Shown here piece after piece: positions 5,955-31,519 of a stretch of DNA of 36,281 bases. The notes under the pieces are model-generated. The model saw only the letters and a list, made by a program, of their open reading frames with translations. It did not search any database and was not told where the DNA came from. Position 1 is the stretch's first letter, and every line of letters begins with the position of its first letter. The stretch is from a virus. Location of the stretch: positions 1-36,281 of the IMG/VR virus record IMGVR_UViG_3300045611_000199; one strand, 5' to 3'. The position numbers and the translations under genes were made by a program.

Positions 5955-5981
5955 CTCACTGTTCAAAAACTGAACAATGAG
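5955..5981. promoter_or_regulatory. Dyad element copy 1 (TGTTCA-N5-TGAACA)
   Basis: The core TGTTCA-AAAAC-TGAACA occupies 5960-5976 and the symmetry continues outward to 11-base arms at 5955-5965 and 5971-5981 with one mismatch. It lies 15 bases after the Sak4-like stop and 37 before the next start. No U-run follows, so it is not an ordinary terminator. It is one of four exact copies in the window and is probably a protein-binding operator or an RNA hairpin signal. Confidence 0.8.
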
Positions 5982-6012
5982 ATAAAAACCTAATAAAAAG
6001 GAGAAAAGAATT

Positions 6013-6411
6013 ATGGCACCTTTCATCGAAATGGCAATCGGCGACGCAAAAGAACCTAGGGTACTCCCGGAGAAGGAGTACGAACTCAAAGTCCTAAAGG
6101 TTTCTGTCGGTCTCTCAAGTGGCAGGGGTGGCAAGGAAAAGAGGAACCAGATGGTTCTTATGCTCGGCGTCCCTGGGTATGTTACAAAGCCCATCTACTA
6201 CTACCTCGGTCTCGAGACAGCCCATCTTGACGACGCGGCAAAGAACATGCGCTACCTAGAAACCAAAGCTCTCTGCAAGATGTTCAACGTCCCCTTCGAC
6301 GCAGACGGTTTCAACTCCGACGATTTCATCGGCGCAGATGGTGTTGGTCTCCTTCAGGTAGAAAACAGCGACGAGTACGGCGAAAGCAACAAGCTCAAAG
6401 TCCGGTTCTAA
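6013..6411 (+). CDS. Putative ssDNA-binding partner of the Sak4-like ATPase (DUF669-like)
   Basis: The 132-residue protein starts after AAAAAGGAGAAAAGAAT. Its layout, a beta-rich first part (LPEKEYELKVLKVSVGLSSG and MVLMLGVPGYVTKPIYYYLG), a helix with KALCKMFNVPFDADGF and a final strand block (GLLQVENSDEYGESNKLKVRF, acidic and ending on an aromatic), resembles the phage DUF669 group often found beside AAA_24 ATPases and thought to bind single-stranded DNA. The similarity is by eye only. Codon use is of the highly expressed type (AAG, CTC, GAC), as expected for a stoichiometric DNA-binding protein. A terminator-like structure follows at 6468, and dyad copy 1 precedes it. Confidence 0.65.
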   Translation: MAPFIEMAIGDAKEPRVLPEKEYELKVLKVSVGLSSGRGGKEKRNQMVLMLGVPGYVTKPIYYYLGLETAHLDDAAKNMRYLETKALCKMFNVPFDADGFNSDDFIGADGVGLLQVENSDEYGESNKLKVRF

Positions 6412-6415
6412 AAAA

Positions 6416-6493
6416 CGGGTATAAAGGAACTGAGATGTAACAAAACTACCGGATGTGCCCTAACCCGAAAGAGGGGGAGTCCTTGCCAGTTCC
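6416..6493 (+). other. Intergenic segment with competing RNA pairings
   Basis: In the 108-base gap, CGGGT (6416-6420) can pair with ACCCG (6463-6467), and GGAACTG (6426-6432) is perfectly complementary to CAGTTCC (6487-6493). The two pairings cross, giving a possible pseudoknot, and the second would compete with the terminator stem at 6468-6506. I recognise no known riboswitch or tRNA. Confidence 0.4.
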
Positions 6494-6506
6494 CTCCTCC
6501 TTTTTT
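6468..6506 (+). terminator. Imperfect Rho-independent terminator
   Basis: AAAGAGGGGGA (6468-6478) can pair with TCCCTCCTCCTTT (6491-6503) with two single-base bulges, followed by the remaining T residues of a TTTTTT run (6501-6506). It lies about 57 bases after the stop of the 6013 gene and just before the ribosome site of the 6520 gene, so it may attenuate the downstream genes. Confidence 0.55.
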
Positions 6507-6519
6507 AAAGGAAGAAAAA

Positions 6520-6819
6520 ATGAGCGATTGTAACGGCTGTTTAAACTGTATTGTGAAAGCGGTAGGGGAAAAAGAGTACTCTGAGATATTCTCAAAACTC
6601 TCTGGATCGTATAAGTCGAGTAAGGTTTTTAAAAATGAGAAAAAACGCCAGATTGTATACTGCTCAAAAGGCTACTGGAACCGTCCGTATCTTGTCTTGC
6701 ATGATCAAAAAAATGGAAGGGTTTTTTATAACAAGTTTGGAGAAATAATAATAAGTAAAAAAATAAGCCTACAAGAGTGTGAGGACGAACAAAGGGAGGA
6801 TGAAGAATGTCAGGCTTAA
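6520..6819 (+). CDS. Hypothetical protein with N-terminal cysteine cluster
   Basis: The 99-residue protein starts with MSDCNGCLNC, three cysteines at residues 4, 7 and 10, which could bind zinc or another metal with Cys-48 and Cys-87. The middle has strand-like segments (RQIVYCSKGYWNRPYLVLHD, GRVFYNKFGEIIISKK), and the end is very acidic. The family is not recognised. AAAGGAAGAAAAA precedes the start. Its 3' end overlaps the following small gene by 13 bases, whose ribosome site (GGGAGG) lies within it, so translation is coupled. Being next to a ribbon-helix-helix-like protein, it could take part in regulation, which is inference from position. Confidence 0.68.
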   Translation: MSDCNGCLNCIVKAVGEKEYSEIFSKLSGSYKSSKVFKNEKKRQIVYCSKGYWNRPYLVLHDQKNGRVFYNKFGEIIISKKISLQECEDEQREDEECQA

Positions 6820-6998
6820 GACGAATGGAACTATGGCTTCCAGCAGAGACACGATCAGAAATGCATAAAAGAATCCCTTACGGACTGCGTTCACAAGTCA
6901 TTGAAGAGCTTTGTAAGGCAGTTATAAAAGACACGGATAGCCGTCCTGTTTCTGTCGTCGTGACAGAAATCCTCGACGGCAAATGGAGGATGCCGTGA
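6807..6998 (+). CDS. Ribbon-helix-helix-like small DNA-binding protein
   Basis: The 63-residue protein has a strand RRMELWLPAE followed by two helices (about residues 13-25 and 28-41, LRSQVIEELCKAVI), the order of the Arc/MetJ/CopG ribbon-helix-helix fold, in which the strand pair enters the major groove. A short beta-like tail (RPVSVVVTEIL) follows. Such proteins bind short palindromes as dimers and often regulate their own operon, which makes it one candidate to bind the TGTTCA-N5-TGAACA dyads, one of which (5960) lies 850 bases upstream. The fold call is by pattern only. Its stop overlaps the next gene (GTGA). Confidence 0.5.
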   Translation: MSGLRRMELWLPAETRSEMHKRIPYGLRSQVIEELCKAVIKDTDSRPVSVVVTEILDGKWRMP

Positions 6999-7237
6999 AC
7001 AAAGAAGATTTCGTAATAGAAAACATTCAGAAAACAGTCCTCGACATGACGGATGACGAACTAATGGAACAGGTAAAACTCATCCGCAGCCGCCGTTTCG
7101 TTCCGAAAACTGCTGTGGTCGAAAAGCGTGCGGCGAAAAAGAAACTCAACCTTGCGGAAAAGCTTAAGAACCTTACGCCTGAACAAAAAGAGAAACTCAA
7201 GCAACTTCTAACAGGAGGTATTTCAAATGGCAGGTAA
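6995..7237 (+). CDS. Small protein with basic linker and C-terminal LTPEQKEKLKQLL helix
   Basis: The start is taken as GTG 6995, which overlaps the preceding stop as GTGA and has GGAGG five bases upstream; an in-frame ATG at 6983 has no ribosome site. The 80-residue product begins with an acidic helix (VIENIQKTVLDMTDDELMEQVKLIRS, broken by a Thr-Asp pair), then a basic linker (VPKTAVVEKRAAKKK), then LNLAEKLKNLTPEQKEKL, the same type of terminal helix as in the proteins at 907 and 2104. The family is not recognised. Its 3' end overlaps the methyltransferase gene, so the two are made together and may interact. Confidence 0.68.
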   Translation: MNKEDFVIENIQKTVLDMTDDELMEQVKLIRSRRFVPKTAVVEKRAAKKKLNLAEKLKNLTPEQKEKLKQLLTGGISNGR

Positions 7238-8591
7238 TTCTCCAATGCCCTCTGTATGCGTTCTTCGCATAGATCAGATAACTGTCCCTCAACGTTTCCG
7301 TGAAGACTACGGTAACATGATCGACTTGATCGCTTCGATCAAATCAAAAGGTCTCATCTCTGCCCTCACCGTGGATGAGAAACACAATCTTCTCGCCGGC
7401 GGCAGACGTTATAAAGCCTGCTTAGAAGCCGGAGTCGAATACGTCCCGGTGAATGTTAAAAAACAACTCTCTCCTGTCGACCGCCTTGAAATCGAACTTG
7501 ATGAGAATCTCCAGCGCAAAAGCCTCACATGGCAGGAAGAAGTTCGACTCAAGGAAGCAATAGATGATGAGAAAAGAAAGGAAGACCCCAACTGGTCTTT
7601 GAGAAAAACAGCAGCTTTCTTTGGCGACAGTGTTGGAAGTATCCACCGGGACCTCGACATTGCAAAAGCCGTGAAGGCAATCCCAGAACTTGCTCAAGCG
7701 AAAACAAAAGACGAAGCAGTGAAAAAGATCCAGAAAATGCATGACGACATAGTCCTCGCAGAGTTCGCCAAAAGGCAGGTTGCAAAAATCTCTGTTGTAG
7801 AATCTCAGAAAGAAGGAGAGGAAAAACCTTCTGATGAGCAAAAGAAAAGAGAAGGAGCCATGAAAATCTTCGACTCCTATCTTGTGGGAGATGCTCGTTT
7901 TCTAATCGCAGAGTGTGCGGATGCATCTTTTGATTTCGCAAACGTAGACCCTCCTTATGGCATCAACCTCAATGATGTCAAAGCCTCCCAAAGAGGAGGG
8001 GATGAGAAAACTATAAACCTTGATGACTACGCCGAAGTCGACCCGGATGAATATGAGAGTTTTACTATCCATATAGCCGACGAGGTTTTCCGAGTTCTCA
8101 AAGACAACACCTGGTGTGTCTGGTGGTTCGGAATTGAGTGGTATGAGATGGTTAAGAGAATCCTCACAGAAATAGGATTCTCTGTCGATCTCATCCCTTG
8201 TTTATGGATAAAAGACCGCGGCCAAACGAACCGCCCTGATTGCTACTTCGGGAGAGCTTATGAAACCTTCTTCCTCGCATCAAAAGGCAAGCCTACAATT
8301 CTGAAAAAAGGCCGTCTCAACACTTTCTCCTACCCCATCGGCGATTCCGGGAAGAAAATCCACGCGGCAGAAAAACCAGTGAAACTTATGCGAGAAATCT
8401 TCTCTTCTCTCGCCCTCCCAGGAAGTAAAATCATTTCCCCCTTCCTTGGCTCTGGAAACGATATCATTGCTGCAATTGCGGAAAACATGACCTGCACGGG
8501 TTTCGACTCCTCAGAAAACAATAAGAACAAATTCATCTCCGTAATCGCCACGACGATAGGCTTGAAAGGGGAGGGCAAGGATGAAAAATAG
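7227..8591 (+). CDS. ParB-HTH domain fused to a beta-class DNA methyltransferase
   Basis: The 454-residue protein has a ParB/sulfiredoxin-type N domain (residues about 10-105) with GGRRYKA at 58-64 and ENLQRKSLTWQEE at 93-105, then a helix-turn-helix (about 122-148, WSLRKTAAFFGDSVGSIHRDL). After a charged linker comes an N6-adenine or N4-cytosine methyltransferase: DPPYG (241-245, motif IV), HAAEKPVKLM (379-388) and FLGSG (406-410, motif I). Motif IV before motif I is the beta-class order. Motif I reads SPFLGSGND instead of the usual DPFxGSGTT. It probably modifies phage or host DNA, directed by the ParB-HTH part. ParB-methyltransferase fusions are known in phages. No ParA and no restriction enzyme are present. 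GGAGG precedes the start. Confidence 0.9.
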   Translation: MAGNSPMPSVCVLRIDQITVPQRFREDYGNMIDLIASIKSKGLISALTVDEKHNLLAGGRRYKACLEAGVEYVPVNVKKQLSPVDRLEIELDENLQRKSLTWQEEVRLKEAIDDEKRKEDPNWSLRKTAAFFGDSVGSIHRDLDIAKAVKAIPELAQAKTKDEAVKKIQKMHDDIVLAEFAKRQVAKISVVESQKEGEEKPSDEQKKREGAMKIFDSYLVGDARFLIAECADASFDFANVDPPYGINLNDVKASQRGGDEKTINLDDYAEVDPDEYESFTIHIADEVFRVLKDNTWCVWWFGIEWYEMVKRILTEIGFSVDLIPCLWIKDRGQTNRPDCYFGRAYETFFLASKGKPTILKKGRLNTFSYPIGDSGKKIHAAEKPVKLMREIFSSLALPGSKIISPFLGSGNDIIAAIAENMTCTGFDSSENNKNKFISVIATTIGLKGEGKDEK

Positions 8592-9000: not shown

Positions 9001-11323
9001 GATCAATCCTTTTGCGAAAATTGTTCTTATAGGAGAAGCTCCGGGAGAGCAAGAGATCACGGAGAGAAAGCCTTTTGTAGGCCCTGCTGGCAATCTTCTT
9101 GACCAATGCCTTCACGTTGCGAGGATTGCAAGGAGTGAGTGCATTTTAACTAATGTGATAAAAATCCGTCCTTTGAAGAATGACATCTCTCCTTATTTCA
9201 AAGATGGAAAGTTCACAGAAGCAGGAAAACCGTGGGTTGAGAAACTCCGGTTGGAGTTGGAAACCTACTCTGACGCTACCATCTTTGTCGCTGTAGGAGG
9301 AACCGCTCTTACTGCTTTAACAGGAAAAACTGGGATAACAAAATGGCGCGGCTCTCCTATTCCCTGCACCCTTATCCCTGGAAAAACCGTTATCCCAACA
9401 ACCCATCCTTCTCACTCCATCCGCCCCGGCGGATACCTCGACCGCTACGATATTGTCTGTGATCTCAAGAAAGTAAAATGCTGGTCCCTTCACGAACCAA
9501 ACTACAAACCTATTCACAGAGAACTCGTTGACAGACCAACTTTCCAAGAAGCGAGAGGCTATCTTGAGTTCCTTTTGGAAATGAAACTCCCTGTCGTCTT
9601 CGACATCGAGACTCCGAAAAACATCCAGTGGATTCGGTGCATAGGGTTCTCTCACCAGCCAACTTTTGCAATGTGCATCCCTTTGAGTAACTCCTATTGG
9701 AGCGAGTGGGAGGAGTTCTACCTTATTCGTCTTATTGGAAAGATCCTTGCTGACGAAAATATTCCAAAAATCGCTCACAACATGGTGTTTGACTCCCACT
9801 TCCTTTTAAAAATCTACAAGATGGTCACCCGAGGAGAACTCCACGACACAATGGCCGCGGCGCAACTGCTCTGGCCAGACCTTTCAAAATCCTTGGAATA
9901 CCTAACAAGCATCTACACAGACATCCCTTACTACAAAGACATGTCAGATAAGGATTTGTACCTATACAACTGCTGGGACTGTGTAGCAACGTTTGAAATC
10001 TGGCCTGTTTTGATGAAAGAGATTGAGGAAAAAGATCAAAGAGAAGTCTACAACGACGCAGTTACAAAATGTCTCCCCGTGGCCCTTTATATGCAGGCAA
10101 GAGGAATAAAAACAGATGTTGAAGGGATAAAGAACGAGCATAAAAAAGTCTCCCAGGAGATAGAAGAGAAGGAAAAGCTGCTTGAAAAACTTGCTGGTCA
10201 CCCTCTCAACGTTAAATCTCCTAAACAAATGGCACAATATTTCTATGTTGAAAAAGGTTTTCCTCCTTATACAAAAGGAGGCAGCGTTACAACAGACGAA
10301 ATAGCCTTGTTACGCTTACAAAGAAAGGGTTCTATTGAAGCGGGTCTTGTCCTTGACCTCCGCGGATTGTATAAACTCCGAGGAACTTATTTAGAAATCC
10401 AACTTGATCCTGACAACCGATTGAGAGGGGAGATGAAAATATCTGGAACGGTTTCAGGAAGATGGGCTTCTTCCCAATTCCTTGACGAAACAGGTGCGAA
10501 TATGCAGAACCTGGACCCGAGGTTTAAAAAATTCCTATGTGCTGATGAGGACCATCTACTTGTTCAATTCGACAAGAAACAAGCCGAATGGGTTCTTGTT
10601 GCTTACCTCTCTGGGGATTATAGCATGATAACTGCGGTGGAAAAAGGAGTCGACCTTCACAAATGGACAGCATCTTTGATGTTCGACAAACCCATAGAAC
10701 TTATTTCAAAGGAAGAAAGAAAGATCGCCAAGAGCTGTAACCATGGACTCAACTACGACATGGGCATCCAACGCTTTGCTCTCTTGCAACAGGTCTCAGA
10801 CAACGTTGCCCGAGACTGGTACAACAAATACCACGAGGCTTATCCGGGAATTAAGAATTTTTACCACAAAGAAACTCAACACCAGCTCCGTGAATCCCGG
10901 ACTCTTTCCAACCTGCTAGGGAGAAAAAGAACCTTCCTTGACCGCTGGGGAGACGAGCTTTTCAAAGCTGCATACGACTTCAAACCCCAAAGCACCGTTG
11001 GTCATATTATTAGTAAAACCCTCGGGAGCAGTTATAAAAACAAAGACCTGGTTACCCAAACCCACGACTCTGTTCTTATCCAAGAACCTTACAAACACAT
11101 AAAAGCCCTCGCTTTAAACATCTACTGGATGATAAAGCGCTTAGACATTCCTCTCTTCTACAAAGGAAGAACCTTTGTCGTAGAAACTACAGTTGAAATT
11201 GGCTTTCGCTGGGGTTCGTTGGTAGAAACAACAATATCCTCCACGGACACCATTGACGACATCGAGGAAAAACTTCGAGTTGAGGTTTACGACAGATTGG
11301 GGATATCATGGGTAGATTACTAG
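8948..11323 (+). CDS. Family A DNA polymerase with fused N-terminal uracil-DNA-glycosylase-like domain
   Basis: Residues about 25-175 of this 791-residue protein are a family 4 UDG-like domain: GEAPGEQE (29-36), FVGPAGNLLD (43-52), NVIKIRP and THPSHSIR (152-159). The CxxC and third cysteine that hold the iron-sulphur cluster in family 4 are absent. A 3'-5' exonuclease follows: DIE at 219-221, NMVFD and the YNCWD block. The polymerase part has GTVSGRWASS, motif A with Asp-542 (QFDKKQAE), motif B RKIAKSCNHGLNYDMG with His-599 where Pol I enzymes have Phe-762, and motif C THDS with Asp-707 followed by Ser rather than Glu. Phage SPO1 polymerase has a similar fusion. AAAGGAGG precedes the start. 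This is the replicative polymerase. Confidence 0.95.
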   Translation: MSLMSDLTQQIAIEVPPEINPFAKIVLIGEAPGEQEITERKPFVGPAGNLLDQCLHVARIARSECILTNVIKIRPLKNDISPYFKDGKFTEAGKPWVEKLRLELETYSDATIFVAVGGTALTALTGKTGITKWRGSPIPCTLIPGKTVIPTTHPSHSIRPGGYLDRYDIVCDLKKVKCWSLHEPNYKPIHRELVDRPTFQEARGYLEFLLEMKLPVVFDIETPKNIQWIRCIGFSHQPTFAMCIPLSNSYWSEWEEFYLIRLIGKILADENIPKIAHNMVFDSHFLLKIYKMVTRGELHDTMAAAQLLWPDLSKSLEYLTSIYTDIPYYKDMSDKDLYLYNCWDCVATFEIWPVLMKEIEEKDQREVYNDAVTKCLPVALYMQARGIKTDVEGIKNEHKKVSQEIEEKEKLLEKLAGHPLNVKSPKQMAQYFYVEKGFPPYTKGGSVTTDEIALLRLQRKGSIEAGLVLDLRGLYKLRGTYLEIQLDPDNRLRGEMKISGTVSGRWASSQFLDETGANMQNLDPRFKKFLCADEDHLLVQFDKKQAEWVLVAYLSGDYSMITAVEKGVDLHKWTASLMFDKPIELISKEERKIAKSCNHGLNYDMGIQRFALLQQVSDNVARDWYNKYHEAYPGIKNFYHKETQHQLRESRTLSNLLGRKRTFLDRWGDELFKAAYDFKPQSTVGHIISKTLGSSYKNKDLVTQTHDSVLIQEPYKHIKALALNIYWMIKRLDIPLFYKGRTFVVETTVEIGFRWGSLVETTISSTDTIDDIEEKLRVEVYDRLGISWVDY

Positions 11324-12585: not shown

Positions 12586-12944
12586 CAGATCATGATGTTA
12601 TAAGAAAGAGACTTTATGAACAAAAAGGATTGTGTTCTTTCAACATCGAGAGGGACTTTAACTGCCTGATATGTGCGATAATTGAAAGAATACTTCCATT
12701 TTTCAACCTCATGTACCACCGAATCCTAATGGGAGAATATCGCTATGGTCCTATTCCTGACTATCCTGTGAACTGGCTGAGAGATGTGGAGAGGACAATC
12801 GGGAACTATAAAAGAACTGGCAACACGGAATTCTTAGTCGACGCGGCGAATTATGTAATGTTAGAATTCCTCCACGGCAACCATCCTGAAAAACACTTCG
12901 CCGTAAACGATGACGGCGAACATTCTGAAAGGAGAGCGAAATGA
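12582..12944 (+). CDS. Hypothetical all-helical phage protein
   Basis: The 120-residue protein overlaps the ATPase stop (ATGA) and is thus coupled to it. It appears all alpha. The phrase RTIGNYKRTGNTEFLVDAAN followed by YVMLEFLHGNHPEKHF recalls helical phage proteins with an E-x3-D-x2-N pattern that can look like all-alpha NTP pyrophosphohydrolases (MazG type), but the full metal-binding set of that family is not clear, so I assign no activity. Its place beside polymerase and ATPase would suit a nucleotide-pool enzyme. Cysteines at about 18, 28 and 31 are in the first helix region. Confidence 0.65.
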   Translation: MTDHDVIRKRLYEQKGLCSFNIERDFNCLICAIIERILPFFNLMYHRILMGEYRYGPIPDYPVNWLRDVERTIGNYKRTGNTEFLVDAANYVMLEFLHGNHPEKHFAVNDDGEHSERRAK

Positions 12945-13237
12945 TAAGATACTGTGAAAACTGTGAATTTTACTACCAGGCATACAATTATGGCGGATAC
13001 TGTCGGTTTGACCCTCCTAAGAAGAGAGAAATTGAGGTCTCACATAAGCACTGGTGCGGAAAGTTTTTAGATAAGGATATTACTGAGAGCCTTAACGCGA
13101 ATATAGTAAAGTATCAAGCTATTCTTCAAGCAATAGAAGACTGCTTAAAAGGAATAGAACCCACAGGTTTCGCTGCGACATTTGATATTGTCCAGAACGT
13201 TTGGAAACTAAAACAACCTACCCTGTTCAAAGATTGA
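12941..13237 (+). CDS. Small zinc-binding-type protein at the end of the early operon
   Basis: The 98-residue protein begins with a Cys cluster: YCENCEFYY (Cys-5, Cys-8), GGYCRFDPP (Cys-21) and HWCGKF (Cys-39), the plan of a small zinc-binding phage domain also seen in other phages but without known function. A helical tail follows (residues about 50-95). It overlaps the previous gene (ATGA) and is the last rightward gene. The stop TGA at 13235-13237 lies within dyad copy 2, whose right arm supplies the stop codon, and the bidirectional terminator follows at once. Confidence 0.72.
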   Translation: MIRYCENCEFYYQAYNYGGYCRFDPPKKREIEVSHKHWCGKFLDKDITESLNANIVKYQAILQAIEDCLKGIEPTGFAATFDIVQNVWKLKQPTLFKD

Positions 13238-13240
13238 ACA
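13224..13240. promoter_or_regulatory. Dyad element copy 2 (TGTTCA-N5-TGAACA)
   Basis: TGTTCA-AAGAT-TGAACA. The TGA of the right arm is the stop codon of the last early gene, and the element abuts the bidirectional terminator. The placement at the end of the rightward operon parallels copies 1, 3 and 4. Confidence 0.8.
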
Positions 13241-13274
13241 AAAAAGAGGGGAGCTTCCTGCTCCCCTTCTTTTC
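13241..13274. terminator. Bidirectional terminator between converging operons
   Basis: GGGGAGC (13248-13254) and GCTCCCC (13260-13266) form a 7-bp GC-rich stem with a TTCCT loop. Rightward it is followed by TTCTTTTCT; leftward the complement ends in TCTTTTTT. It can therefore stop both the early rightward and the late leftward transcripts. Confidence 0.9.
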
Positions 13275-13276
13275 TA

Positions 13277-13492: not shown

Positions 13493-16400
13493 CACAACCC
13501 CCTTAACATCTGTGCAATCATCCTTTTCTTTTCCACTTCCTGCTCATTGTGGGTTTTAAACATCTTATAAATCTGTGCAGAACCCGGGACACCAACCATC
13601 TGACCGATAGTTTTTGCTGCAAGAGCATCACCTACCTTTCCTTGAATAACTCCCGCCAAGTTCTGAGCAACTTCTACCCCCGGACCACCCCATGTGGAAC
13701 CGTAGCGAATGGGTCCACCTACAATTGGCATATCCTCCGCAAATTCCAATCCCCCTCTTAAAAGAGCCTTCCCCACTCTTTTAACAGCCCCAGTATTAAG
13801 AGCTTCTTCCTCAGAAGCTGTAAGAGAACGCCCTTGAACAAGCTCAGCAATGGCAGCCCCTCTTTTCGCCTCCTGTTCTTCCAACGATTTCTTAAACTCC
13901 TTCACCGGCTGCGGGAATGGGGAGAACATAGGAAGAACATAATCCGTCACATCTCCTACCTCATCATTCATCGAGTGGATCGCTTTTGAAGTATTTTCAA
14001 AAACATCCTCGAAGAGATAAGAAAAAACTGCGGTGGCAACTGCCAGTCTTACAACCTTCTCCGCTCTTGCTTCTGTAAACTGCGGGTTCTTCCAACCAAG
14101 AACATCACTTGTTAGAAAACCCCAGTTATTAATTGTAAAAGTCTGGAGGAAGGTGAGAAACTTTCCACCTGGGGTTCTTTGAATATAAGAAATATGCTCC
14201 GCTCCTCCAACTCCCTGAGAAAGATTCACTATCTCGTCAGCATATGTCTTAATCTTCTCCCCCCGGATCCCAATTTCCTTCGCCCTCTTCTCTGCTGCCA
14301 ACCACGTTACTTCTGCAGTAATCCTGTCAAGGAAAGAAAGAGGCTTCAATCCTGCTCTTCCTAAAACATCCCGAATAAGAACTCCCTTATCCACTACATT
14401 CTGAACGGCTCGACCAACAACTGTTTTCTCTCCTGCCGTAAGTTCCCGGAAAGCAGCTCTTCTATCTGCTTGGCTCTTTGCAGTTTCAAGAATCGCCTCC
14501 GGAGAGCGTGTGATAATCGCGTTGCTTTCTTTAAAAACTCTCTCCCTCAATTCCTTTCTCGTCTCCGTTGCTGTACCAAGAGCCCAGTCTGCAAGAGCGC
14601 TCATTACATTATTACTCCCACAAGCAACCACGGTGTTACGAAGAGAGGAGACTTGAACAAGAGCACTCCGGATGTTATAAGAAAGAACCGCGAACATTAT
14701 GTTTTCGTTCAATCTCGCGGCAACCTTCTGGAAACCCTCATAGTTCTCATCCGTCCTCTGCTTCCCCGAGTAGAAATTAATTGTCTTATCAAGCCAATTA
14801 ACCATCCTCATGTTAACATTATCTCTCCGCATCTGCTCAACAATAGCTCTTTGCTTTGCAAGTGCGGGAGTTCTATGAATATACTTAGTCATCGTATCCA
14901 AGTAATCCAGATAAACCTTCTCCCCATCAAGGAGAAAAGGAAGCTCACTCTTCTTCTGCCTCTCTGTGTATTTATTCGTCGTATCTCCGAACCGCAAAAT
15001 CTTGGTAATATCCATCGTTTTCGCGGTCGAAATGTCCAAACCTAGTTTTTCTGCAAGAACAAGGTCCCTGATGAAAGGAAAGTATTGACCCTCTCCAACA
15101 CCCTCTGGTGCAGATACAGGCTCTTTTCCAGCTGCCGCTCTTGCGTCATTAAAACGATTAAGGAATGGCACGAGACTTTTGAGGATGTAGTTTTTAAACC
15201 CTTCCTCCTTTGCTGTAAGCGTGATCTCATTTGGATCTACCCCCTGATTTTTGAGAGCTGTCAAACTCTCAGGCTGATCGGCGAGGATTTTGACTTGAAT
15301 CCTATACCACTCGTTTCTTCCGATTCCAAAATCTTTCTTGTTCTTATAATACTCATCCTTCCTTTCCATGAGTTCTCTTTTATAATCCGCGGTTGCTTTT
15401 ACATTCGGGGTGTGGAAATAATCAATAAAAACTTGTCCGTATTCACGGAGGATACGATAAGGAACCTTGAAAATTCTAAGAGGCTCCTTTTGCATTTCCT
15501 TCGCGGAGTATATTTTCATGAGATCCTTCTCGCTCATTTTTGTAACGTACTTTCTTTTCTTATCCCCTACTTCAATCACATCGTCCTGTTCTGTGAAACG
15601 GAGATCACGAAGTTTTTCTCTCAAAAGAGAAGCCTCCGCGGGAGTTATCCGATCCACTTCACGTAGAGGCATACTCCTTCTTCCAAGAACCTTCCTCGCA
15701 AGATTAAGAAAATCCTGGTCTCGAGTGATGTTAGACTCTTTTGCAAGCTCCCTTAAAGCAGAATACTCCTCCGGGGAGATTCTTCTCTTCGCAAGGTTCT
15801 CCTTCTCAAGTGCTCTTATCCTTCCTTCGATCTCCTTCTGCTTCAACAACCTCCCGAAGATTCTTCCATTCTCCTCTCGGAGAATATCAAAAGGATGGTT
15901 TAATAACTGCGCGGGGTCTCCTGTGTAATCTATAAAAGTTGAAACCTCATCCCCGTAAGTTTTTCTTACTCTTAAAATAGCATTTTTAAGAGCTTGAGGA
16001 TTGTCAGCCCTTATAGTAATTCCATCATCTTTCTCCGCCTTAAAATCAAATACGTCTTTTTCCGCGGGAGTGGTTAAGTCAATAGAATGCATCGTTCCTT
16101 TAACTACCTTTGTCAAATCTCCTACATCACTGACTTCCCTCCCTAAAAACTCCTTCAACGACCCTACATCTTTCCTCGCCAGAGCAATTCCAAAATTCAA
16201 ATCCCCCTCCGAACGAGCTTCTATAATCCTCTCTGTAAGAGGATCCCTAAACATCAACCCAACAGTCTCCCCCTCCGTGCTTCTGATCGAACCAGCGTAC
16301 TCAACTCCAAACTTCTTCATTACTGATTCCCCGAAGCCTTTTACATTATTCCCTACATCAAAAAGCCACTGTTGATCCGGGAGCGGGTTCCCTTTCTCAT

Positions 16401-19602: not shown

Positions 19603-19603
19603 C

Positions 19604-20104
19604 TCACAGCTCCTTTTCTAAAGTAGTCCATGCCTTCTTATACCCCAAACCAAGAGCTTGAATCCACTCATCTGTTGTTCCAATATCCGCCTCAGCCCGG
19701 ATGCTTTTACAACCTGTGAGACGGGCATACCCCTCAAGAGCTTCTTGTCCTTTTCTTATATGTTCCATTGCAAGACCGTTGAACCCATAAAGAGCGTAGA
19801 TGTAAAGAAATCTTACCCCACTCCTACTCGGAGCTTGGTCGACATATGAGATAATAAACCCTACAAAGAGAGCATTTTCCTCCTCCATTGTATACCCAAC
19901 CCACAACTGCATCCTTCCTGAAATAATGCCAGCAAGGACTGAGTTTACATAATCCGGATCCGTGGATGCAAGAAGAGGTCTCATGTCAACAAGTCCATAC
20001 TTCACATAAGCCCACACCTTTTCAATATCCCTCGGATAGATTCTTAAAACAACAAACCTCTCCTGTTCAATTTTTGAACATGTTAGGTGCATAGGTGTTT
20101 CCAT
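19604..20104 (-). CDS. GNAT-like protein within the virion gene block
   Basis: I choose ATG 20104 (AAAGGGGAG five bases upstream) over an earlier in-frame start at 20173 that would overlap the previous gene by over 100 bases. The 166-residue product has a GNAT acyltransferase-like order: a strand-helix N part (CSKIEQERFVVLRIYPRDIEKVWAYVKYG), strands LWVGYTMEE and ALFVGFIISYVD, then RFLYIYALYGF and a helix (GLAMEHIRKGQEALEGYARLTG) followed by SIRAEADI. The acetyl-CoA pyrophosphate loop (R/QxxGxG/A) is not clear, so it may be a structural relative or modify a virion protein. The start overlaps the upstream gene's end by 38 bases, and dyad copy 3 lies inside this overlap. Confidence 0.68.
   Translation of the reverse strand: METPMHLTCSKIEQERFVVLRIYPRDIEKVWAYVKYGLVDMRPLLASTDPDYVNSVLAGIISGRMQLWVGYTMEEENALFVGFIISYVDQAPSRSGVRFLYIYALYGFNGLAMEHIRKGQEALEGYARLTGCKSIRAEADIGTTDEWIQALGLGYKKAWTTLEKEL
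20064..20080. promoter_or_regulatory. Dyad element copy 3 (TGTTCA-N5-TGAACA)
   Basis: TGTTCA-ATTTT-TGAACA on the plus strand, TGTTCA-AAAAT-TGAACA in the leftward sense. On the minus strand the TGA at 20069-20067 is the stop codon of the 20067 gene, and the element also lies 25-41 bases into the GNAT-like gene, so it is retained in spite of two overlapping frames. Confidence 0.78.
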
Positions 20105-21516: not shown

Positions 21517-22664
21517 TCGTAGCTCCTTGTCAGACGGAGGACAAAAGAAACAATAAGATCTGTTCCACTACTCCCTGTGACACTGACCCAAAAAGTATCG
21601 CCAACGTCAATATCATCGTATTCAGTAACCGCGTCTCTATCAGTTGTAGAATTCTGAGGAATGGTAAGCTCAGTGATGTTTGCACAACGAGTGTGGATGA
21701 ATTTTACCGACACAGTTGAACTCGGAGCACTTGCAAGAACTGCTGTAAAGTTGATTGCTTCCATATCGACGATATTCCCAACTCCAACCTGGAAAGGAAT
21801 AGTCCATGCGTAGGCCTTGGAATTCGTCGCTACAGTTCCTGGAATGTAGTGCTCGAAAATAACATAATCCTGCATAGTCCGCATCAGAGTTCCAAGTTTG
21901 TTCAACTCACTTTGAACATCATCCACGGCGCCGAAATAAGTATCCGGGCTGGTGTTAATAACTGAGCTTGCAGGAGGAGATGGAAGCTCACCCAATGCAG
22001 TCAACGCATCATCAATATCCTGTATCGCGGCTTGAACGTCAGCCGCGTCGATATTAGCAAGACCACTATCGTTGATTCCGACAGTAGACGCACCAGAAGT
22101 CTGACTCAAAGCTGTTACAAATCCTAGGAGGGTTGTAATTGCGGAGTTAACTGTCCCATCCCCGTGTGCAATGTTTGAACTACTCAAGTCAAACAACCAC
22201 TCACAAACTGCCTGAAGAGCTGTTTCGACATCACCATTCTGACCAATGATATAAACAGGCTCAGAATAGGTATACTCGATAGCATCCGCTCCAAGAGCCG
22301 CATCCACTCCAACCATCGCGAAGAGACGATCAAGAGCTTCTTTTACATTATCAACTGGAACTCCCTGAAGTGTGTAGTCAATGTCATCTGGATCAACGGC
22401 AAACCCTCTTCCCCAAGTAGTTCCAAGATCCACATACAACTTCTCGTTCGTCTCATCATAATACACTCTTCCAGCAACACCTGCTGAAGGACGTCCTCCA
22501 AGTCCATCTCCGGTAAGGATATTAATCGTCCCGTCATCCTCATGGCTTTCCTCTCCAAACGCGACGATATCTTCGCATAATGTAAGTAAGATGTTATAAA
22601 GAGTCGCGGGGACCTCAACATCGTCCTCAATAAAGCTTAGGTTCCTTATATTCTCAAGTCCCAT
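21513..22664 (-). CDS. Structural protein with five ALxxL helix repeats
   Basis: The 383-residue protein follows GGGAGG. After a beta-like N part, five similar short units occur near residues 104, 144, 171, 207 and 246: DNVKEALDRLFAMVG, DVETALQAVCEWLF, VNSAITTLLGFVTALS, DVQAAIQDIDDALTALG and DDVQSELNKLGTLM. Such 30-40-residue repeats of acidic-start ALxxL helices are common in phage fibre shafts. The C-terminal part (270-383) is a beta-sandwich (VSVKFIHTRCANITELTIP, TFWVSVTGSSGTDLIVSF), a probable decoration or tip domain. The gene sits between adaptor and tail genes, so it is likely a tail or neck fibre. Confidence 0.75.
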   Translation of the reverse strand: MGLENIRNLSFIEDDVEVPATLYNILLTLCEDIVAFGEESHEDDGTINILTGDGLGGRPSAGVAGRVYYDETNEKLYVDLGTTWGRGFAVDPDDIDYTLQGVPVDNVKEALDRLFAMVGVDAALGADAIEYTYSEPVYIIGQNGDVETALQAVCEWLFDLSSSNIAHGDGTVNSAITTLLGFVTALSQTSGASTVGINDSGLANIDAADVQAAIQDIDDALTALGELPSPPASSVINTSPDTYFGAVDDVQSELNKLGTLMRTMQDYVIFEHYIPGTVATNSKAYAWTIPFQVGVGNIVDMEAINFTAVLASAPSSTVSVKFIHTRCANITELTIPQNSTTDRDAVTEYDDIDVGDTFWVSVTGSSGTDLIVSFVLRLTRSYE

Positions 22665-22667
22665 TTT

Positions 22668-23291
22668 CTACCCTCCCATCTGGTTTGGTAAGCTTTCAAG
22701 CTCTTCTTCGATAGTGTCAAAGTACTCGCTTTTCAGATCCAGAATTGCATCTTCTCGAAGAGCCGCAGATTCGCTGTGATTTCTAAAACGCTTTTCAACA
22801 ATCGACGCTGCCATTTTCATCACAGTTTCTGGATATTTTCGAGTGATGTAGTTCTCAACATTCTCCTCTGTTATTTCATCATGCCAGAGGATTCCTCTTG
22901 CAGTAAGTGTTCCTGTAGTCGCAGGAGTTGAGAAGAGAAGAATTCTATGAGTCAAACTCGTGCCGTCAATTTGGTCATAACACCAGTAAGCCAGTTCGTC
23001 TATTGTCTCTCCTCTCTCCTGTGCAGCAATACACCATGCGTAGTCTCTTTTTAAAACCTCCGCATTGCCATTGAAGAGATTATGCAAAATCCGAACACTC
23101 GAGGGGATAACTGCATACTGCTGTCCGGCGGTCACGGTAATACTAACCTCTCCCATGTTCGGTTTTAGCAGCGAAGTTTTATCAAGCTCCCTCACTGCTT
23201 GGTTTACAAGGCTATCAACTTCCTGCGGATCAATAATCATAGAGCCGAGGTAGTTAGATAGTAATTTCTTTCTTATCTCATCTCTTTCCAT
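22668..23291 (-). CDS. Head-tail adaptor-like protein
   Basis: The 207-residue protein has the layout of podovirus head-tail adaptors (gp4/gp6-like): an N-terminal helix set (RDEIRKKLLSNYLGSMIIDPQEVDSLVNQAVRELDK), a beta insert (GEVSITVTAGQQYAVIPSSVRILH) and a long C-terminal helical part (RKYPETVMKMAASIVEKRFRNHSESA). Similar proteins are often next to the SU10-type capsid gene, as here. It should sit between the portal ring and the tail. The start follows GGAGGG. The capsid gene's terminator (23301-23331) lies just upstream, so this gene is read by leakage through it or by its own promoter. Confidence 0.72.
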   Translation of the reverse strand: MERDEIRKKLLSNYLGSMIIDPQEVDSLVNQAVRELDKTSLLKPNMGEVSITVTAGQQYAVIPSSVRILHNLFNGNAEVLKRDYAWCIAAQERGETIDELAYWCYDQIDGTSLTHRILLFSTPATTGTLTARGILWHDEITEENVENYITRKYPETVMKMAASIVEKRFRNHSESAALREDAILDLKSEYFDTIEEELESLPNQMGG

Positions 23292-23300
23292 AATCCCTCC

Positions 23301-23331: not shown

Positions 23332-23348
23332 GAGATTCTTGTTGCTAA

Positions 23349-24617: not shown

Positions 24618-24629
24618 AATATCCTCCTG

Positions 24630-25824: not shown

Positions 25825-25840
25825 AATTTTTCTCCTCTTA

Positions 25841-26752: not shown

Positions 26753-26764
26753 TGCTCTCTCCTT

Positions 26765-29314
26765 CTAATAACCAGTCACGGTCCAATCGTAACGGCCGCT
26801 AGTTTTTGTTCCACTCCCATTCCTTAGTTGTAGGCAGAAGAACTCGGGGTAGATTAGATCCCTGAAATCTACCACAGGACTAAGGGTTGTTCCATCACTT
26901 GCTCTTCCTGTTACAACCAAAGAGATCACGTCAATAAAACTCTTCCCGAAATAAGCTACAACTCCTCTTGTTTCCACATTATCCGCAACAGCATGTGCGG
27001 ATCCCCCAACGTTCAACGTCTCATTATTCTGAAACGCTGTAACGCTTATGGAAGAAAGAACAAGAGTCCCAGCTGCGTTACTACTTCCCCAACTTCCGCT
27101 TGTTAGAAGAACATCCTCAACATAAGCAGTTGCACCGCTCGTTGCGCCAGTGATGGTATCTCCGGGTTCGATCTCAGAAGAACCTCCGTCGAAGTCAATA
27201 ACTCCTGTTGATTCATTTGTAGTTGAAGAATAATCCCCACTCCCACCATCATACTTCATTCTGATGTCAAGAATTGCACTTATTCGGAGGAACAGAGGAA
27301 GCTTCGTTGCAGTCACGGGGGTGTACTCAACTCTTATCTTCACATAATCAAACCCTTCCGCAATAAGATCAGTAGGGTCTTCTGTCCAGTCATAAGTCAC
27401 TCCGCCATCACTCAAGCCAACGCTTACGACGAAATCAGTTCTATCTACTGTGGTGTCAAGACTACTCCATTCCACATTCAGACGGATTCTAGTAGTAGGG
27501 AATAAAGCTCCTAATGAGAATGTTTCCTCATAAGAAGCTTCTACGCTAAGAATCGCGGGTTCAAGAAAGAAGTTCCATCCATCACTAATGAAGTCTGAAA
27601 GGGTCACATTAGAGTTATCAGTAAAATGCTCCGCGAAGGTTTGCGTAGCATCTACTCCAAGAACAAGACGACCGTCTTCTATTACAAAACCTCCTGTTAA
27701 TGTCCCATTACTCCAGTCACAAACAAGACGATCTCTTATCGTATAATCCGCGGGTTCGTCAACAAGCGCTTGGCAAGAGACATAATTCCCAGTATGCTCT
27801 GCAACATCTGTTGCAGCAATCCAATATGTGTAGGTTCCAGAAGCTCCTTCATAGATTTGAGCATAAGTCCCTTTGATATTCAAAACAGTTGTTGCGGTTC
27901 CAAGAGTAGCTCCTTTTTTAACCACATAGTCAGCAATAGGAAACTGTCCTGTTGCAGGGTCCCAGGTTATTAGGACATTATTATCTATTACCGTAACAGA
28001 CACATTTGAAACAGTTCCAGGTGCAGTTATCATTATACTCGCAGAAGCTGCACTTGTTGAATAGTTCCTTCCCCTATCTCTTGCTTTTATGTAAAACGTA
28101 TTCTGTCCTACCGAGAATACATCAAGAAGGAACTCTGTTGTTTTTGACTGCGTTATAAGATTACTATCCTTCGTTCCCCAATTCGCATCGTTCAGACGGA
28201 TTTCATAAAACTCAATATCAAGCTCCGTCCCCGGAGTCCAGGTGAACTTGAGTTGTCCTGTCATTATAGGCTCAACAGAAAAGCCAGCAGTTGTAGAAGG
28301 AGGAACAACATCTCCTTCCATGTCATTACTCGTTATTGCACTATGATTTCCTACAACATTGTGAGCTTCTAACTCCCAATATACATGCTCACAAGAACCG
28401 TCTTCTATCCACATCTGTCTTGTGTAAACAAGAGAACACTCTTGAGTTTTTACACTCCTCAGAAGGTTTGTAAGAAGAACGTCACTGTAAATATTCACCT
28501 GGTAGTAATCCAAATCACGGCAGACTGCTGGCTGCCATCTTCCTGTCAAATTACTTCCGTCGAAGACAAGAACAAGAGAACCAGGGACAAGGAAAGGAGG
28601 GTTATTTGTAAGCTCTATCGAGTCTGCTGTGTCAGAACAGTAATCTCCATTTCTATTCACTGTTTTGATATAGAAAGAGTAGCTAAAAATCCCTGACCAC
28701 GGGTTGGCCCATATGTAGGATGTGGCCAGTCCTCTATAAATCAGTCCAGATTCAGAACCCCAGTTGAGATCAGTTCTTATTTCATAAGCCCCCAGATCCT
28801 TATTCGTAACAGGTCTCCAGGCAAGTTCGATATTTCTTTCAAAAGAACATAACTCGTCAAAGAATTCTGTAAAATCTGGAGAAACAAGATCTGCAGTTAC
28901 AACAATAACAGCCTCTGGGCAGTCTGCCCAAAGAAGCTTTGCTCCATCTGGATTCTCTGTTTGGATTTTAATAACGTAGCTTCCAGCTCCAGGAACGTCG
29001 AATTCGCAATAGTTATCAAACACAGGAACTGTTCCTATGTATTTGTAATCCCCGGAGTCTTTTGAATACCACACGTTGTTTTTAAAACCTATTCTCTCAT
29101 GATCTGTGTTAGTAAAACTCACCTCAACCACAGGGATGTAGGTTCCATCCCTTAAGAATTTATAACCTTCTTCAAGAAGCAAACCCTGAACAGCTAAAGG
29201 AGACGAATCAATAGGAAGCTCCTTTACCTCCTGAGCTGCGTAGTGTTTTCCAGCGCACAAATTCCGTGTGCGGAAGATTACGTCTCTGTAACTCTTATCA
29301 GGTCTCAGTGTCAT
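26765..29314 (-). CDS. Large tail protein with multiple FN3-like repeats
   Basis: The start is ATG 29314, sharing a base with the portal stop (TGATG); a GTG at 29317 is also possible. The product has about 849 residues. Its N part (1-130) is unique and beta-rich, then several FN3-like units follow (e.g. ELAWRPVTNKDLGAYEIRTD; LKFTWTPGTELDIEFYEIRL; VLITWDPATGQFPIADYVVK), each with the Trp and Tyr/Leu core. The last third is a separate beta-rich region (about 540-849) with Asp/Gly-rich repeats. Such multi-FN3 proteins serve as fibre or hub proteins that meet cell-surface carbohydrate. It lies between portal and fibre genes. Confidence 0.82.
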   Translation of the reverse strand: MTLRPDKSYRDVIFRTRNLCAGKHYAAQEVKELPIDSSPLAVQGLLLEEGYKFLRDGTYIPVVEVSFTNTDHERIGFKNNVWYSKDSGDYKYIGTVPVFDNYCEFDVPGAGSYVIKIQTENPDGAKLLWADCPEAVIVVTADLVSPDFTEFFDELCSFERNIELAWRPVTNKDLGAYEIRTDLNWGSESGLIYRGLATSYIWANPWSGIFSYSFYIKTVNRNGDYCSDTADSIELTNNPPFLVPGSLVLVFDGSNLTGRWQPAVCRDLDYYQVNIYSDVLLTNLLRSVKTQECSLVYTRQMWIEDGSCEHVYWELEAHNVVGNHSAITSNDMEGDVVPPSTTAGFSVEPIMTGQLKFTWTPGTELDIEFYEIRLNDANWGTKDSNLITQSKTTEFLLDVFSVGQNTFYIKARDRGRNYSTSAASASIMITAPGTVSNVSVTVIDNNVLITWDPATGQFPIADYVVKKGATLGTATTVLNIKGTYAQIYEGASGTYTYWIAATDVAEHTGNYVSCQALVDEPADYTIRDRLVCDWSNGTLTGGFVIEDGRLVLGVDATQTFAEHFTDNSNVTLSDFISDGWNFFLEPAILSVEASYEETFSLGALFPTTRIRLNVEWSSLDTTVDRTDFVVSVGLSDGGVTYDWTEDPTDLIAEGFDYVKIRVEYTPVTATKLPLFLRISAILDIRMKYDGGSGDYSSTTNESTGVIDFDGGSSEIEPGDTITGATSGATAYVEDVLLTSGSWGSSNAAGTLVLSSISVTAFQNNETLNVGGSAHAVADNVETRGVVAYFGKSFIDVISLVVTGRASDGTTLSPVVDFRDLIYPEFFCLQLRNGSGTKTSGRYDWTVTGY

Positions 29315-31248
29315 CACGCAGCCCTTGCAGGTGTTATAGGAACAAGGTTCCCTTTTTGTACCTCAGAGGAAACGCTCTCATTAGGAACAACTGCGGCCTT
29401 TATCTCGAAGTCGTTCAAATTCTTTGCCCCCATCAACCGAGCCATGTGTTTGAAAATCCTCACGATGTCGAAGCGCTGAGCAAGTAGCTCGTTTGACGCA
29501 ATAGCTTGGAAGAGCTGAACCCAGCTTTCAAGGTTTTCTACCCCTTTGGATGGAAGACTTCCGTCTTTTATGATAACGTCAATAGGAGCGGCAATGCTCA
29601 TAGGGTCGATGACAATTCCCTCTCCGTATTCTGAACGATACTCATCAGGAAGGTTTCCCAAGACCTTCATATAAACCGGGTTGCTCATGAATTGCTGAGT
29701 ATGTTTTAGCATCAAGTAGCCCAGGTCGTACATGTACTGGAGGGAGATCATTTTACTTATGTGTTCTAATCTTGACATTGCACTCATAGATGTTCCACGA
29801 TACTCTGCGGCACTTCTTCTTTCCCCTCCTTGCCGCATAATCCCCATCGTTGAATCCGTCGCACTCGAAACTCTCTGCATTATGTCCATAATAAAGGATG
29901 CGTCGGAAATGTTGTGAGCAGTAATGTCAGTTACTTGGAGCTGTTTTACAGCTGTTTCAACCCCGCGCCCCCAAGCTGCACGGCGCATTCTTATCAACCT
30001 CCCCGGGCCTTCTTGGTTAAAGTCGTTCATGTTTATCAGCGAGGGGTCCACGATTAGACTATCGTTAATTGCTTTTCTCACGTTTGTCATATGAGAGTTA
30101 AAGAGCCAATCTAACGAGGTCTGTAATCCCAGCAACATCTCAAGACGAGAAACCGGAGTTACGGAATAGCCGTCAAAGTCTGGGGCGTTTACTGCAACCG
30201 GGAATTTGTTGTGATCAAGGTCCAAAGGAAGGGCTCTCACAACAACACTCTCCGCGGCAATGGTGAAGAGCCACTTCTGGGGATATTCCTCATCCGAGAG
30301 TTTATAGTCCTTAGGGATAAGTTTCACAAACATATTGATAAGAGGGATGTTCCCTTTTCTCGAAGACCCCTTTACATCGTGTTTGTCCCTTCTGCTGTTA
30401 TCTCCCCCGAAGACTCCTGTAAAAGACTGGTCTTTGAAGATTTTCAAATACTTTACATTAAAAAGCGTATTGTCGTTTCTTTCTCCATCAAGGAGTCTCA
30501 TGTAATTCGTGTCTTCTATCCACCCAAAATACTCTCCGTTTTGGAACTCCGTGATGGAAACGTTTGCGTCAGGGAGGAGTTTATAGGGGTCTATGTTGTC
30601 AATCCTATTCCCCTCAAATTCCACACCCCATTCACGGGAGATGTTATTTCCTGCGTTGTAAAGCTGTCCTGAAGAGTCGGTTATCACCCCTTGTTTTATA
30701 GTCCTCATCCACCCTTCTTTCTTATCCCAAAAGAGAGAAGAAGCTCCAATGCCGTAAGCCAAACCGCTTCTCATACAGGAGTGAATAGCAAGAGGAGCTT
30801 TGAACCATTCACACTGGCGGTTTATCACGTATTGTAAGAGTTTCGCGGCAACATAGTCTTCTGCTCTTCCTTCGTAAAGGAATATATCCCCGTCGAGGAA
30901 GGAGATAGTCAGATACGTCATCAACGTCTCAAGTTGAGCGTACATGGAAGGAACAACAATGGAAACAGGAGTCCTACTATCTACCTTCTGCTGGTCAACC
31001 TCTTTCGAGTCGGCCGGCTTGTACACCGTGAGAACTTCATCAATAGAATTCCACGAAGCATGCCTCTTGCTGATGCAGTCAAAAGAATCTCTTGCCAAGC
31101 CCATCACAAGTTTGATAAGCTTTTGATGCTCCTCGCTGTCAGGACGAAGAACAATTCCCTCAGGGTACCTTTCCTTATAAAACTCGGTATAGTCGTCTTC
31201 TGAGCTATATCGGATATTTGAATTTGATCCTTGTATAATCACGGGCAT
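29314..31248 (-). CDS. Portal protein
   Basis: The 644-residue protein shows the order of podovirus portals: a charged N-terminal helix region (YTEFYKERYPEGI), a clip/wing part with SMYAQLETLMTYLTISFLDG and YINRQCEWFKAPL-like helices, a stem region (GLQTSLDWLFNSHMTNVRKA), and a long C-terminal crown helix (about 470-560; AMSRLEHISKMISLQYMYDL). It makes the 12-mer DNA channel of the head. It follows terL and a small membrane protein in the operon, and the next gene starts on its stop codon. GGGGAGG precedes the start. Confidence 0.9.
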   Translation of the reverse strand: MPVIIQGSNSNIRYSSEDDYTEFYKERYPEGIVLRPDSEEHQKLIKLVMGLARDSFDCISKRHASWNSIDEVLTVYKPADSKEVDQQKVDSRTPVSIVVPSMYAQLETLMTYLTISFLDGDIFLYEGRAEDYVAAKLLQYVINRQCEWFKAPLAIHSCMRSGLAYGIGASSLFWDKKEGWMRTIKQGVITDSSGQLYNAGNNISREWGVEFEGNRIDNIDPYKLLPDANVSITEFQNGEYFGWIEDTNYMRLLDGERNDNTLFNVKYLKIFKDQSFTGVFGGDNSRRDKHDVKGSSRKGNIPLINMFVKLIPKDYKLSDEEYPQKWLFTIAAESVVVRALPLDLDHNKFPVAVNAPDFDGYSVTPVSRLEMLLGLQTSLDWLFNSHMTNVRKAINDSLIVDPSLINMNDFNQEGPGRLIRMRRAAWGRGVETAVKQLQVTDITAHNISDASFIMDIMQRVSSATDSTMGIMRQGGERRSAAEYRGTSMSAMSRLEHISKMISLQYMYDLGYLMLKHTQQFMSNPVYMKVLGNLPDEYRSEYGEGIVIDPMSIAAPIDVIIKDGSLPSKGVENLESWVQLFQAIASNELLAQRFDIVRIFKHMARLMGAKNLNDFEIKAAVVPNESVSSEVQKGNLVPITPARAA

Positions 31249-31249
31249 A

Positions 31250-31480
31250 TTACATACCTCCCCTTTCCAGAGAGTTGATCCTCGTTTCCATTCTTTCCAT
31301 CCACTTTGTCAGTCCCTCAATCATGTGGTTGTGAGAGTCAAGGAACATTTTAAACTGATCCGTGGTCACGTAGCAATCCTTTGACTTCGCCCATCCGTCT
31401 ATCATTTTGAAAATAATAGTCACAATACTCGCCACCACAGTTATTATTACCATCGCACTTCCCACACTCACTGTCAGCAT
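31250..31480 (-). CDS. Small membrane protein, holin-like
   Basis: The 76-residue protein has one N-terminal membrane helix (about residues 5-25, SAMVIITVVASIVTIIFKMI), then a positively charged turn (GWAKSKD) and a helical charged tail (MIEGLTKWMERMETRINSLE), which could form a coiled coil. This is compatible with a small holin or holin-associated protein, or an i-spanin, but no endolysin lies nearby, so the lysis role is only inferred. It is placed between terL and the portal, a spot where small lysis-like genes do occur in phages. GGAGGG lies ten bases upstream of the ATG. Confidence 0.62.
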   Translation of the reverse strand: MLTVSVGSAMVIITVVASIVTIIFKMIDGWAKSKDCYVTTDQFKMFLDSHNHMIEGLTKWMERMETRINSLERGGM

Positions 31481-31500
31481 TTACCAAGTCCCTCCGCCTA

Positions 31501-31519
31501 GTGTTCAATAATTGAACAC
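31501..31519. promoter_or_regulatory. Dyad element copy 4 (TGTTCA-N5-TGAACA)
   Basis: TGTTCA-ATAAT-TGAACA at 31502-31518, extended to a perfect 19-base palindrome by one base on each side. It lies in the 44-base gap between the terL stop and the holin-like gene and is not followed by a T-run. Confidence 0.8.

Follow-up and report, generated by a model that had tools for sequence, protein, structure and literature searches.

Dyad arrays dispersed over phage genomes as predicted targets of a ParB-methyltransferase fusion

The IMG/VR virus record IMGVR_UViG_3300045611_000199 (36,281 bases, analyzed in its entirety and called the window below) carries four copies of the palindromic dyad TGTTCA-N5-TGAACA. 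It also carries a gene, at 7227-8591 on the plus strand, for a protein of 454 residues in which a ParB_N domain and a helix-turn-helix (HTH) are fused to an N6/N4 methyltransferase. Computational comparison of the window with related phages showed that dyads of this kind are the predicted targets of the HTH of this ParB-methyltransferase. The presence and absence of the gene, the covariation of the dyad arms with the HTH, and the even, intergenic placement of the sites therefore point to the dyads as recognition sites of the Noc, KorB and ParB kind. Phage ParB_N-N6_N4 methyltransferase fusions were already known, and the whole-genome dyad arrays are what is added here.

Dyad arrays, the accompanying gene and covariation with the HTH

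The dyads of the window lie at 5960-5976 (TGTTCAAAAACTGAACA), 13224-13240 (TGTTCAAAGATTGAACA), 20064-20080 (TGTTCAATTTTTGAACA) and 31502-31518 (TGTTCAATAATTGAACA) and are given without a strand. The initial annotation had reported four exact copies at these coordinates and held them to be non-random, and both points were confirmed: 100 dinucleotide-preserving shuffles of the window gave no copy. When up to two mismatches were tolerated, a single weak additional match was found, at 22165. A pooled position weight matrix (PWM) scored the same four dyads at 23-28 bits, with no other position above 9.0 and a shuffle maximum of 15.7.

About 58 relatives were gathered, the majority through similarity of the portal or capsid protein. 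When IMG/VR was scanned with profiles built from portal and capsid alignments, 46 contigs of 30 kb or more were obtained, chosen blind to the dyad. Profile scans performed better than scans with the single proteins TerL, methyltransferase or major capsid protein, which gave few or no relatives, and megablast against phages gave no match. The nearest annotated phage was Desulfofustis phage LS06-2018-MD01 (OP947158; L009), with matches of 34% for TerL, 37% for the capsid protein and 40% for the ParB-methyltransferase. TGTTCA-N5-TGAACA is absent from L009, which has an array of its own, GTCCCA-N3-TGGGAC, in six exact copies (expectation 0.003). The full L009 site, GCTATGTCCC-N5-GGGACATAGC, has a register identical to that of GCTATGTTCA-N5-TGAACATAGC in relative G002. 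The dyad of the window itself was found elsewhere in 11 copies in G031, 9 in G036, 7 in G019, 4 in G002 and 3 in G009, and its reversed control pattern was found in none of the relatives counted.

A palindromic weight-matrix search, in which every genome was scored against its own shuffled version, revealed dyads in multiple copies in almost every relative, usually 7-18 sites, with scores of 15-183 as against about -10 for the shuffles. Exact-arm counts had overlooked the dyads of about 12 methyltransferase-bearing genomes, and the palindromic weight matrix recovered most of these. The dyads are 17-23 bp long across the relatives, with a variable centre of 5 bp in nearly all of them and of 6 bp in G015, G016 and Vibrio phage VS-ABTNL-3 (L012). 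The half-sites are related to CTnTGTTCA and include TGTTCA, TGTTTA, TGGTTA, TGTCCC, CGGTCA, AATTAA, TCTTAC, TCACCA and TGGGGA, among others. Almost every relative with the ParB_N-HTH-N6/N4 methyltransferase has its own multi-copy dyad in this common register. Microcystis phage Mel-JY34 and L012 are carriers available in culture. Two more distant phages with a ParB fold and a methyltransferase, Vibrio phage 1.213.O and Halorubrum virus HRTV-28, had no comparable array; the signal in HRTV-28 was weak and GC-driven.

All predicted genes were then clustered, and the ParB_N-HTH-N6_N4 methyltransferase was the family that best separated dyad-bearing from dyad-free genomes. It was present in 43/45 dyad-bearing genomes, a set that includes five near-duplicate contigs, and in 0/11 dyad-free genomes (Fisher 5e-10), while the runner-up family was present in 41/45 and 3/11, respectively. 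The two dyad-bearing exceptions are G006, a contig that stops beside the DNA polymerase gene, and G050, a contig without the replication region. The initial annotation had named two candidate binders, the ParB-methyltransferase and a ribbon-helix-helix protein encoded at 6807. The former is now strongly favoured by presence and absence and by HTH covariation, and the latter, which had no homologue in any relative, was dropped.

Covariation was analyzed in 37 non-redundant genomes. Dyad-arm similarity was correlated with the identity of the HTH (residues 123-150) at rho 0.46, as compared with 0.24 for ParB_N, 0.08 for the methyltransferase domain and 0.02-0.26 for seven other proteins. A partial Mantel test in which the rest of the protein was controlled gave r = 0.41, and 0/2000 permutations were as high. 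When 28-residue windows were slid over eight proteins (n = 3603), the top 22 all fell at residues 115-161 of the ParB-methyltransferase. The HTH-motif rho was 0.60 among pairs whose other domains were at least 45% identical. These distance-based and sliding-window tests were used because per-column mutual information across all proteins was too noisy and did not single out the HTH.

Residue 136, with which the recognition helix begins, was found to match the base at half-site position -6. Gln occurred with A in 3/3 genomes from three separate clades, and His, Arg or Lys was present in 7/7 genomes with G at -6; other residues went with T, bar one Gln exception. Among the homologues, those of G022 and G037 have His at 136 and that of G025 has Gln. 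Gln-adenine and Arg- or His-guanine are classical contacts. The rule had been found post hoc, and it was therefore tested, as Gln to A, His or Arg to G and the rest to T, on new loci from a protein-profile search, which also brought up at least 400 further homologues in IMG/VR. It was right for 21/22 loci with a motif score of at least 6 (p = 9e-5), where always guessing T gave 16, and for 18/19 with a score of at least 10 (p = 0.0013; always T, 15). In the small sample with a score of at least 20 it was right for 10/11 (p = 0.055; always T, 9). The protein of the window has Val136 (codon 7632-7634), and T stands at -6, in line with the rule. By covariation, residue 136 and the out-of-sample test, this HTH appears to read a palindrome of its own genome in the manner of ParB and Noc, and a dimer of the protein very probably binds the dyad through it, with strong computational support.

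The same data bear on the possibility that the dyads are stoperators or operators of another phage or host regulator, the 6807 protein included. Dispersed intergenic palindromes would suit such sites, and phages can contain sites for regulators of the host, an example being the CRP-like sites of Vibrio phage 1.213.O. However, the motif shifts among related phages track the HTH of the ParB-methyltransferase and not other proteins, the 6807 protein lacks homologues as described above, and there is no preferred orientation. We consider operators of this sort very improbable. An orientation preference had been read from the spacers of the four copies, which in the sense of transcription are AAAAC, AAGAT, AAAAT and ATTAT as first given; it was not upheld, the dyad being a palindrome and the spacers of the relatives neither A-rich nor directional.

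Placement and spacing of the sites

Placement was analyzed for 507 sites in 40 genomes, with genes called mechanically. The data showed that 332/507 sites are intergenic (33 expected) and that 275/507 have a stop codon no more than 30 bp away (40 expected). The placement at gene ends proposed for the four copies of the window held for those copies, and across the family it reflects this intergenic placement. There were 4.2 sites per kb of gap in tandem gaps, 3.0 in convergent gaps and 1.3 in divergent gaps; the depletion of divergent gaps suggests that promoters are not the target. The sites are also evenly spaced, at roughly one per 3 kb across the family. The coefficient of variation (CV) of spacing was 0.54, as compared with 0.97 for random gaps, and in all 39 genomes it was smaller than the null mean (Fisher combined p 3e-32). 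This even spacing holds in early and late blocks alike.

The positions of sites are partly kept while their sequences change. A site stands directly past the capsid gene in 28/41 genomes (1.2 expected) and directly past the primase gene in 13/39. Conserved placement in related phages, the check proposed in the initial annotation, was found. The capsid-linked dyad mostly lies about 45-75 bp past the major capsid stop despite unrelated dyad sequences, and the window has none there.

Gene order in the window runs rightward through an early and replication block up to 13.24 kb and then leftward through a structural block. The contexts first described for the four copies, two in gaps and two with the TGA of a stop codon inside the dyad, were found to be correct, and all four sites have neighbours at related junctions in L009. 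Copy 1 is intergenic and follows the stop of a Sak4-like gene by 15 bases; its L009 counterpart, at 7684, is likewise directly past a Sak4-like gene and differs in sequence. Copy 2 stands where the rightward replication block ends, its TGA being the stop of the gene at 12941-13237, and the L009 counterpart, at 15470, is 17 nt past the primase stop. Copy 3 stands at the end of the gene at 20705-20067, whose stop is the TGA of the dyad, and upstream of the 19604 gene; the L009 site at 23055 is at the opposite end of the orthologous gene. Copy 4 is in the gap that separates terL from a small gene preceding the portal gene, and among the relatives a site is found directly past terL in 8/39 genomes and ahead of portal in 14/40. 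Directly past copy 2, between the convergent blocks, the window has a strong bidirectional terminator-like hairpin, GAGGGGAGC-TTCCT-GCTCCCCTT (13246-13268), with a T-run on both strands.

The closeness to stop codons, and this genuine hairpin adjoining copy 2, could suggest that the dyads are RNA elements, either terminators or processing hairpins at gene ends. However, TTTT follows only 3% of sites, as compared with 6% of control gap positions, in agreement with the initial view that the dyads are not terminators. The processing hairpin considered at the same time does not fit either: beyond mere pairing, the arm sequence is constant within a genome, the arms do not covary as pairs, and they do covary with the DNA-binding helix of the protein. 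An RNA element is hardly credible on these data.

The fusion protein and its proposed mechanism

The ParB-methyltransferase matched Pfam PF02195 and PF01555. All of its parts are encoded on the plus strand: a ParB NTPase-type domain with the boxes GGRR and ENLQR (residues 12-110; 7260-7556), the HTH (7593-7676) and a beta-class-like N6/N4 methyltransferase domain with the motifs DPPY and FLGSG (residues 216-440; 7872-8546). A profile search of PDB sequences aligned residues 1-201 with Noc as the best match (E 7e-21) and with ParB. KorB (8qa8) was also matched, weakly, and over the C-terminal half the matches were DpnA, CcrM and a DNA cytosine-N4 methyltransferase. An AlphaFold2 model from a 37-row alignment (mean pLDDT 87.6) has the ParB fold, the HTH and the methyltransferase as successive units, with residues 1-5 disordered, and its top Foldseek match was CcrM. 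As in the ParB-CTPase fold, box I reads GxRR and boxes II/III read ENxxR, in agreement with PF02195 and the Noc and ParB profiles, and G58, R61, E93, N94 and R97 of these nucleotide-binding boxes are invariant across 40 homologues. The order DPPY then FxGxG, with the CcrM/RsrI fold, is that of beta-class N6/N4 enzymes and is altered in some relatives.

We propose that a dimer of this protein would bind the dyad palindrome through its HTH, that nucleotide binding would close the dimer into a clamp, that the clamp would leave the dyad and slide along DNA, and that it would carry the methyltransferase across the phage genome and methylate it. Nucleotide-gated closing and sliding is probable, given that the protein is homologous with Noc, KorB and ParB. 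Genome-wide methylation, most likely against host restriction, is suggested by the fusion to an enzyme and by sites spaced evenly over the genome, and we rate it as a plausible step falling slightly short of an even balance; the purpose of methylation is the weakest link. We lean, by a little, towards the chain as a whole, in which the dyads are dispersed parS/NBS-like sites and the fusion binds, slides as a clamp and methylates the genome. Sites may lie in gaps because coding sequence is intolerant of dyads, and specificity may diverge fast because protein and sites change together. More tentatively, a methyltransferase that is processive over an entire genome could be loaded as an NTP-gated ParB-type clamp at evenly spaced, phage-specific parS-like sites; in such a self-marking system only DNA with the phage's own sites would be methylated, and the address code of recognition helix and array would be rewritten from phage to phage.

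Several observations weigh against this mechanism. The array of the window is sparse, its four sites amounting to one per about 9 kb. In L012 the HTH of the ParB-methyltransferase looks degenerate, and yet the phage carries four copies of a dyad whose spacer is even; the residue-136 rule is broken in G012 and L346. Motif IV is altered in the site-keeping members G002 (DIDYP), G032 (DPDFA) and L012 (DPIY), and catalysis may therefore not be universal. According to a PNAS 2025 survey (PMC12704722), nucleotide binding is confined to some of the ParB-fold fusions, and among those tested the bacterial SAM-methyltransferase one bound ATP and not CTP. Motif IV also reads DFPY in L009 and DTPY in G005. 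The ParB boxes of all five members with an altered motif IV are largely intact, and it is possible, judging from sequence, that these members lost catalysis and retained site binding.

The same binder could also act as a KorB-like long-range regulator that is loaded at the dyads and, by sliding or stalling, silences or coordinates phage transcription units, with the methyltransferase secondary or serving only as a dimerisation module. From OB sites, where it loads, the ParB-family CTPase KorB represses promoters at distances of up to 1.5 kb (PMC11790492). The profile match to KorB and the methyltransferase domains that look catalytically altered would agree with such a role. However, the promoter-rich divergent gaps are depleted while tandem and convergent gaps are enriched, and spacing is even in early and late blocks alike, and we think this role unlikely, if worth keeping in view.

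A ParA partner (PF13614) was above the cut-off in 0/16 genomes, and the arrays are therefore not a ParABS partition system. This result also argues against a structural job, in which dispersed sites would serve to organise, condense, tether or segregate the DNA of the phage during infection, like Noc sites on the Bacillus chromosome or the dispersed centromeres of plasmid-like phages; so do the lytic-looking gene layout and the replacement of the C-terminal dimerisation domain by the methyltransferase. Noc nucleates at scattered 16-bp NBS sites and then spreads (PMC8429893), and its rank as best match for residues 1-201, together with the even spacing, would fit a structural job, which we regard as rather doubtful. 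The same binder could also leave local epigenetic marks, since a sequence-specific HTH fused to a methyltransferase suffices to steer the enzyme to bases near the dyads without sliding. However, the aligned half-sites share no fixed methylatable base across phages outside the variable arms, and the NTP-clamp boxes, unneeded for local targeting, are invariant. Local marking is improbable in our judgement.

Known systems and further palindromes

The clamp-methylation mechanism was compared with known systems. Noc/NBS of Bacillus is alike in having a ParB-fold protein with an HTH, matched by profile at residues 1-201, and many short palindromic sites dispersed genome-wide; the many scattered sites were found here as well (the 507 in 40 genomes). 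Substitution of Noc R89 or N121 abolishes CTP binding and spreading (PMC8429893), and these residues appear to have counterparts among the conserved R and N positions of the phage fusion. Unlike Noc, the fusion is phage-borne and has a methyltransferase in place of the ParB-type C-terminal domain, and its site is 17-23 bp long and odd-centred (16 bp for Noc), with a specificity that varies by phage. KorB/OB of plasmid RK2 also pairs a ParB-family protein, weakly matched by profile (8qa8), with dispersed operators, and KorB is a CTP-gated sliding clamp (PMC11790492), whereas the phage sites avoid divergent gaps and the phage protein carries an enzyme.

ParABS shares the ParB_N boxes, and the likeness to parS arms seen in the initial annotation was borne out, with outer TGTT...AACA at nearly the parS distance from the centre. 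The canonical 16-bp parS is TGTTTCACGTGAAACA. The phage sites do not conform to it: at 17-23 bp, with a variable centre of 5 bp (sometimes 6 bp), they have a centre base extra or missing, and they are many and evenly spread. ParA was not found in the 16 genomes searched with PF13614, and the C-terminal half of the protein is an N6_N4 methyltransferase domain and not the ParB dimerisation domain. The stoperators of mycobacteriophage L5, with which the dyads had been compared, are likewise short sites dispersed over a phage genome and close to the ends of genes. L5 stoperators are asymmetric, oriented and repressor-bound. In contrast, the dyads are palindromic, undirected, evenly spaced, depleted in divergent gaps and covary with the ParB-methyltransferase, and no repressor was identified; the comparison was abandoned.

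Phage ParB_N-N6_N4 methyltransferase fusions are described in the 2025 survey as phage-enriched and of no known function, with a merely possible anti-defence or phage-host role (PMC12704722). The domain pair is identical to that studied here, and the survey's text, as searched, mentions no target sites; such sites were described nowhere among the papers found in literature searches. Predicted target sites can now be assigned to these fusions, together with a specificity position and a rule that links residue to base; all three can be read off the sequence, and the function of the fusions is therefore directly testable. The group offers an example, unusual in its clarity, of a DNA-binding protein and its entire genomic site array switching specificity jointly. 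If clamp-methylation is true, it would be a new form of self-DNA marking, by a sliding enzyme loaded only at the phage's own address sequence.

Other palindromes and contigs were noted among the phages compared. L012 has the even-centred dyad CAATCG-N6-CGATTG at 174, 6569, 23360 and 38801, with 3/4 copies intergenic. Vibrio phage 1.213.O (L315; MG592583) carries about ten CTGTGA-N6-TCACAG palindromes, at 1736, 4888, 5982, 7628, 12394, 14189, 15754, 30580, 32633 and 39003, nearly all in annotated gaps, which look like host CRP/FNR-type operator sites dispersed over the phage genome. The methyltransferase-free EBPR podovirus 3 (L016) has a compound palindrome, GCGG...GTATC-N1-GATAC, unrelated to the dyad, near 9398-9436, 13813, 29050-29093 and 38969. 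The 64 kb contig G044 encodes two ParB-methyltransferases, at 2186-3619 and 46367-47707; over most of its length it copies G022 (99.998%), and the remainder is an unrelated-looking stretch of 18 kb.

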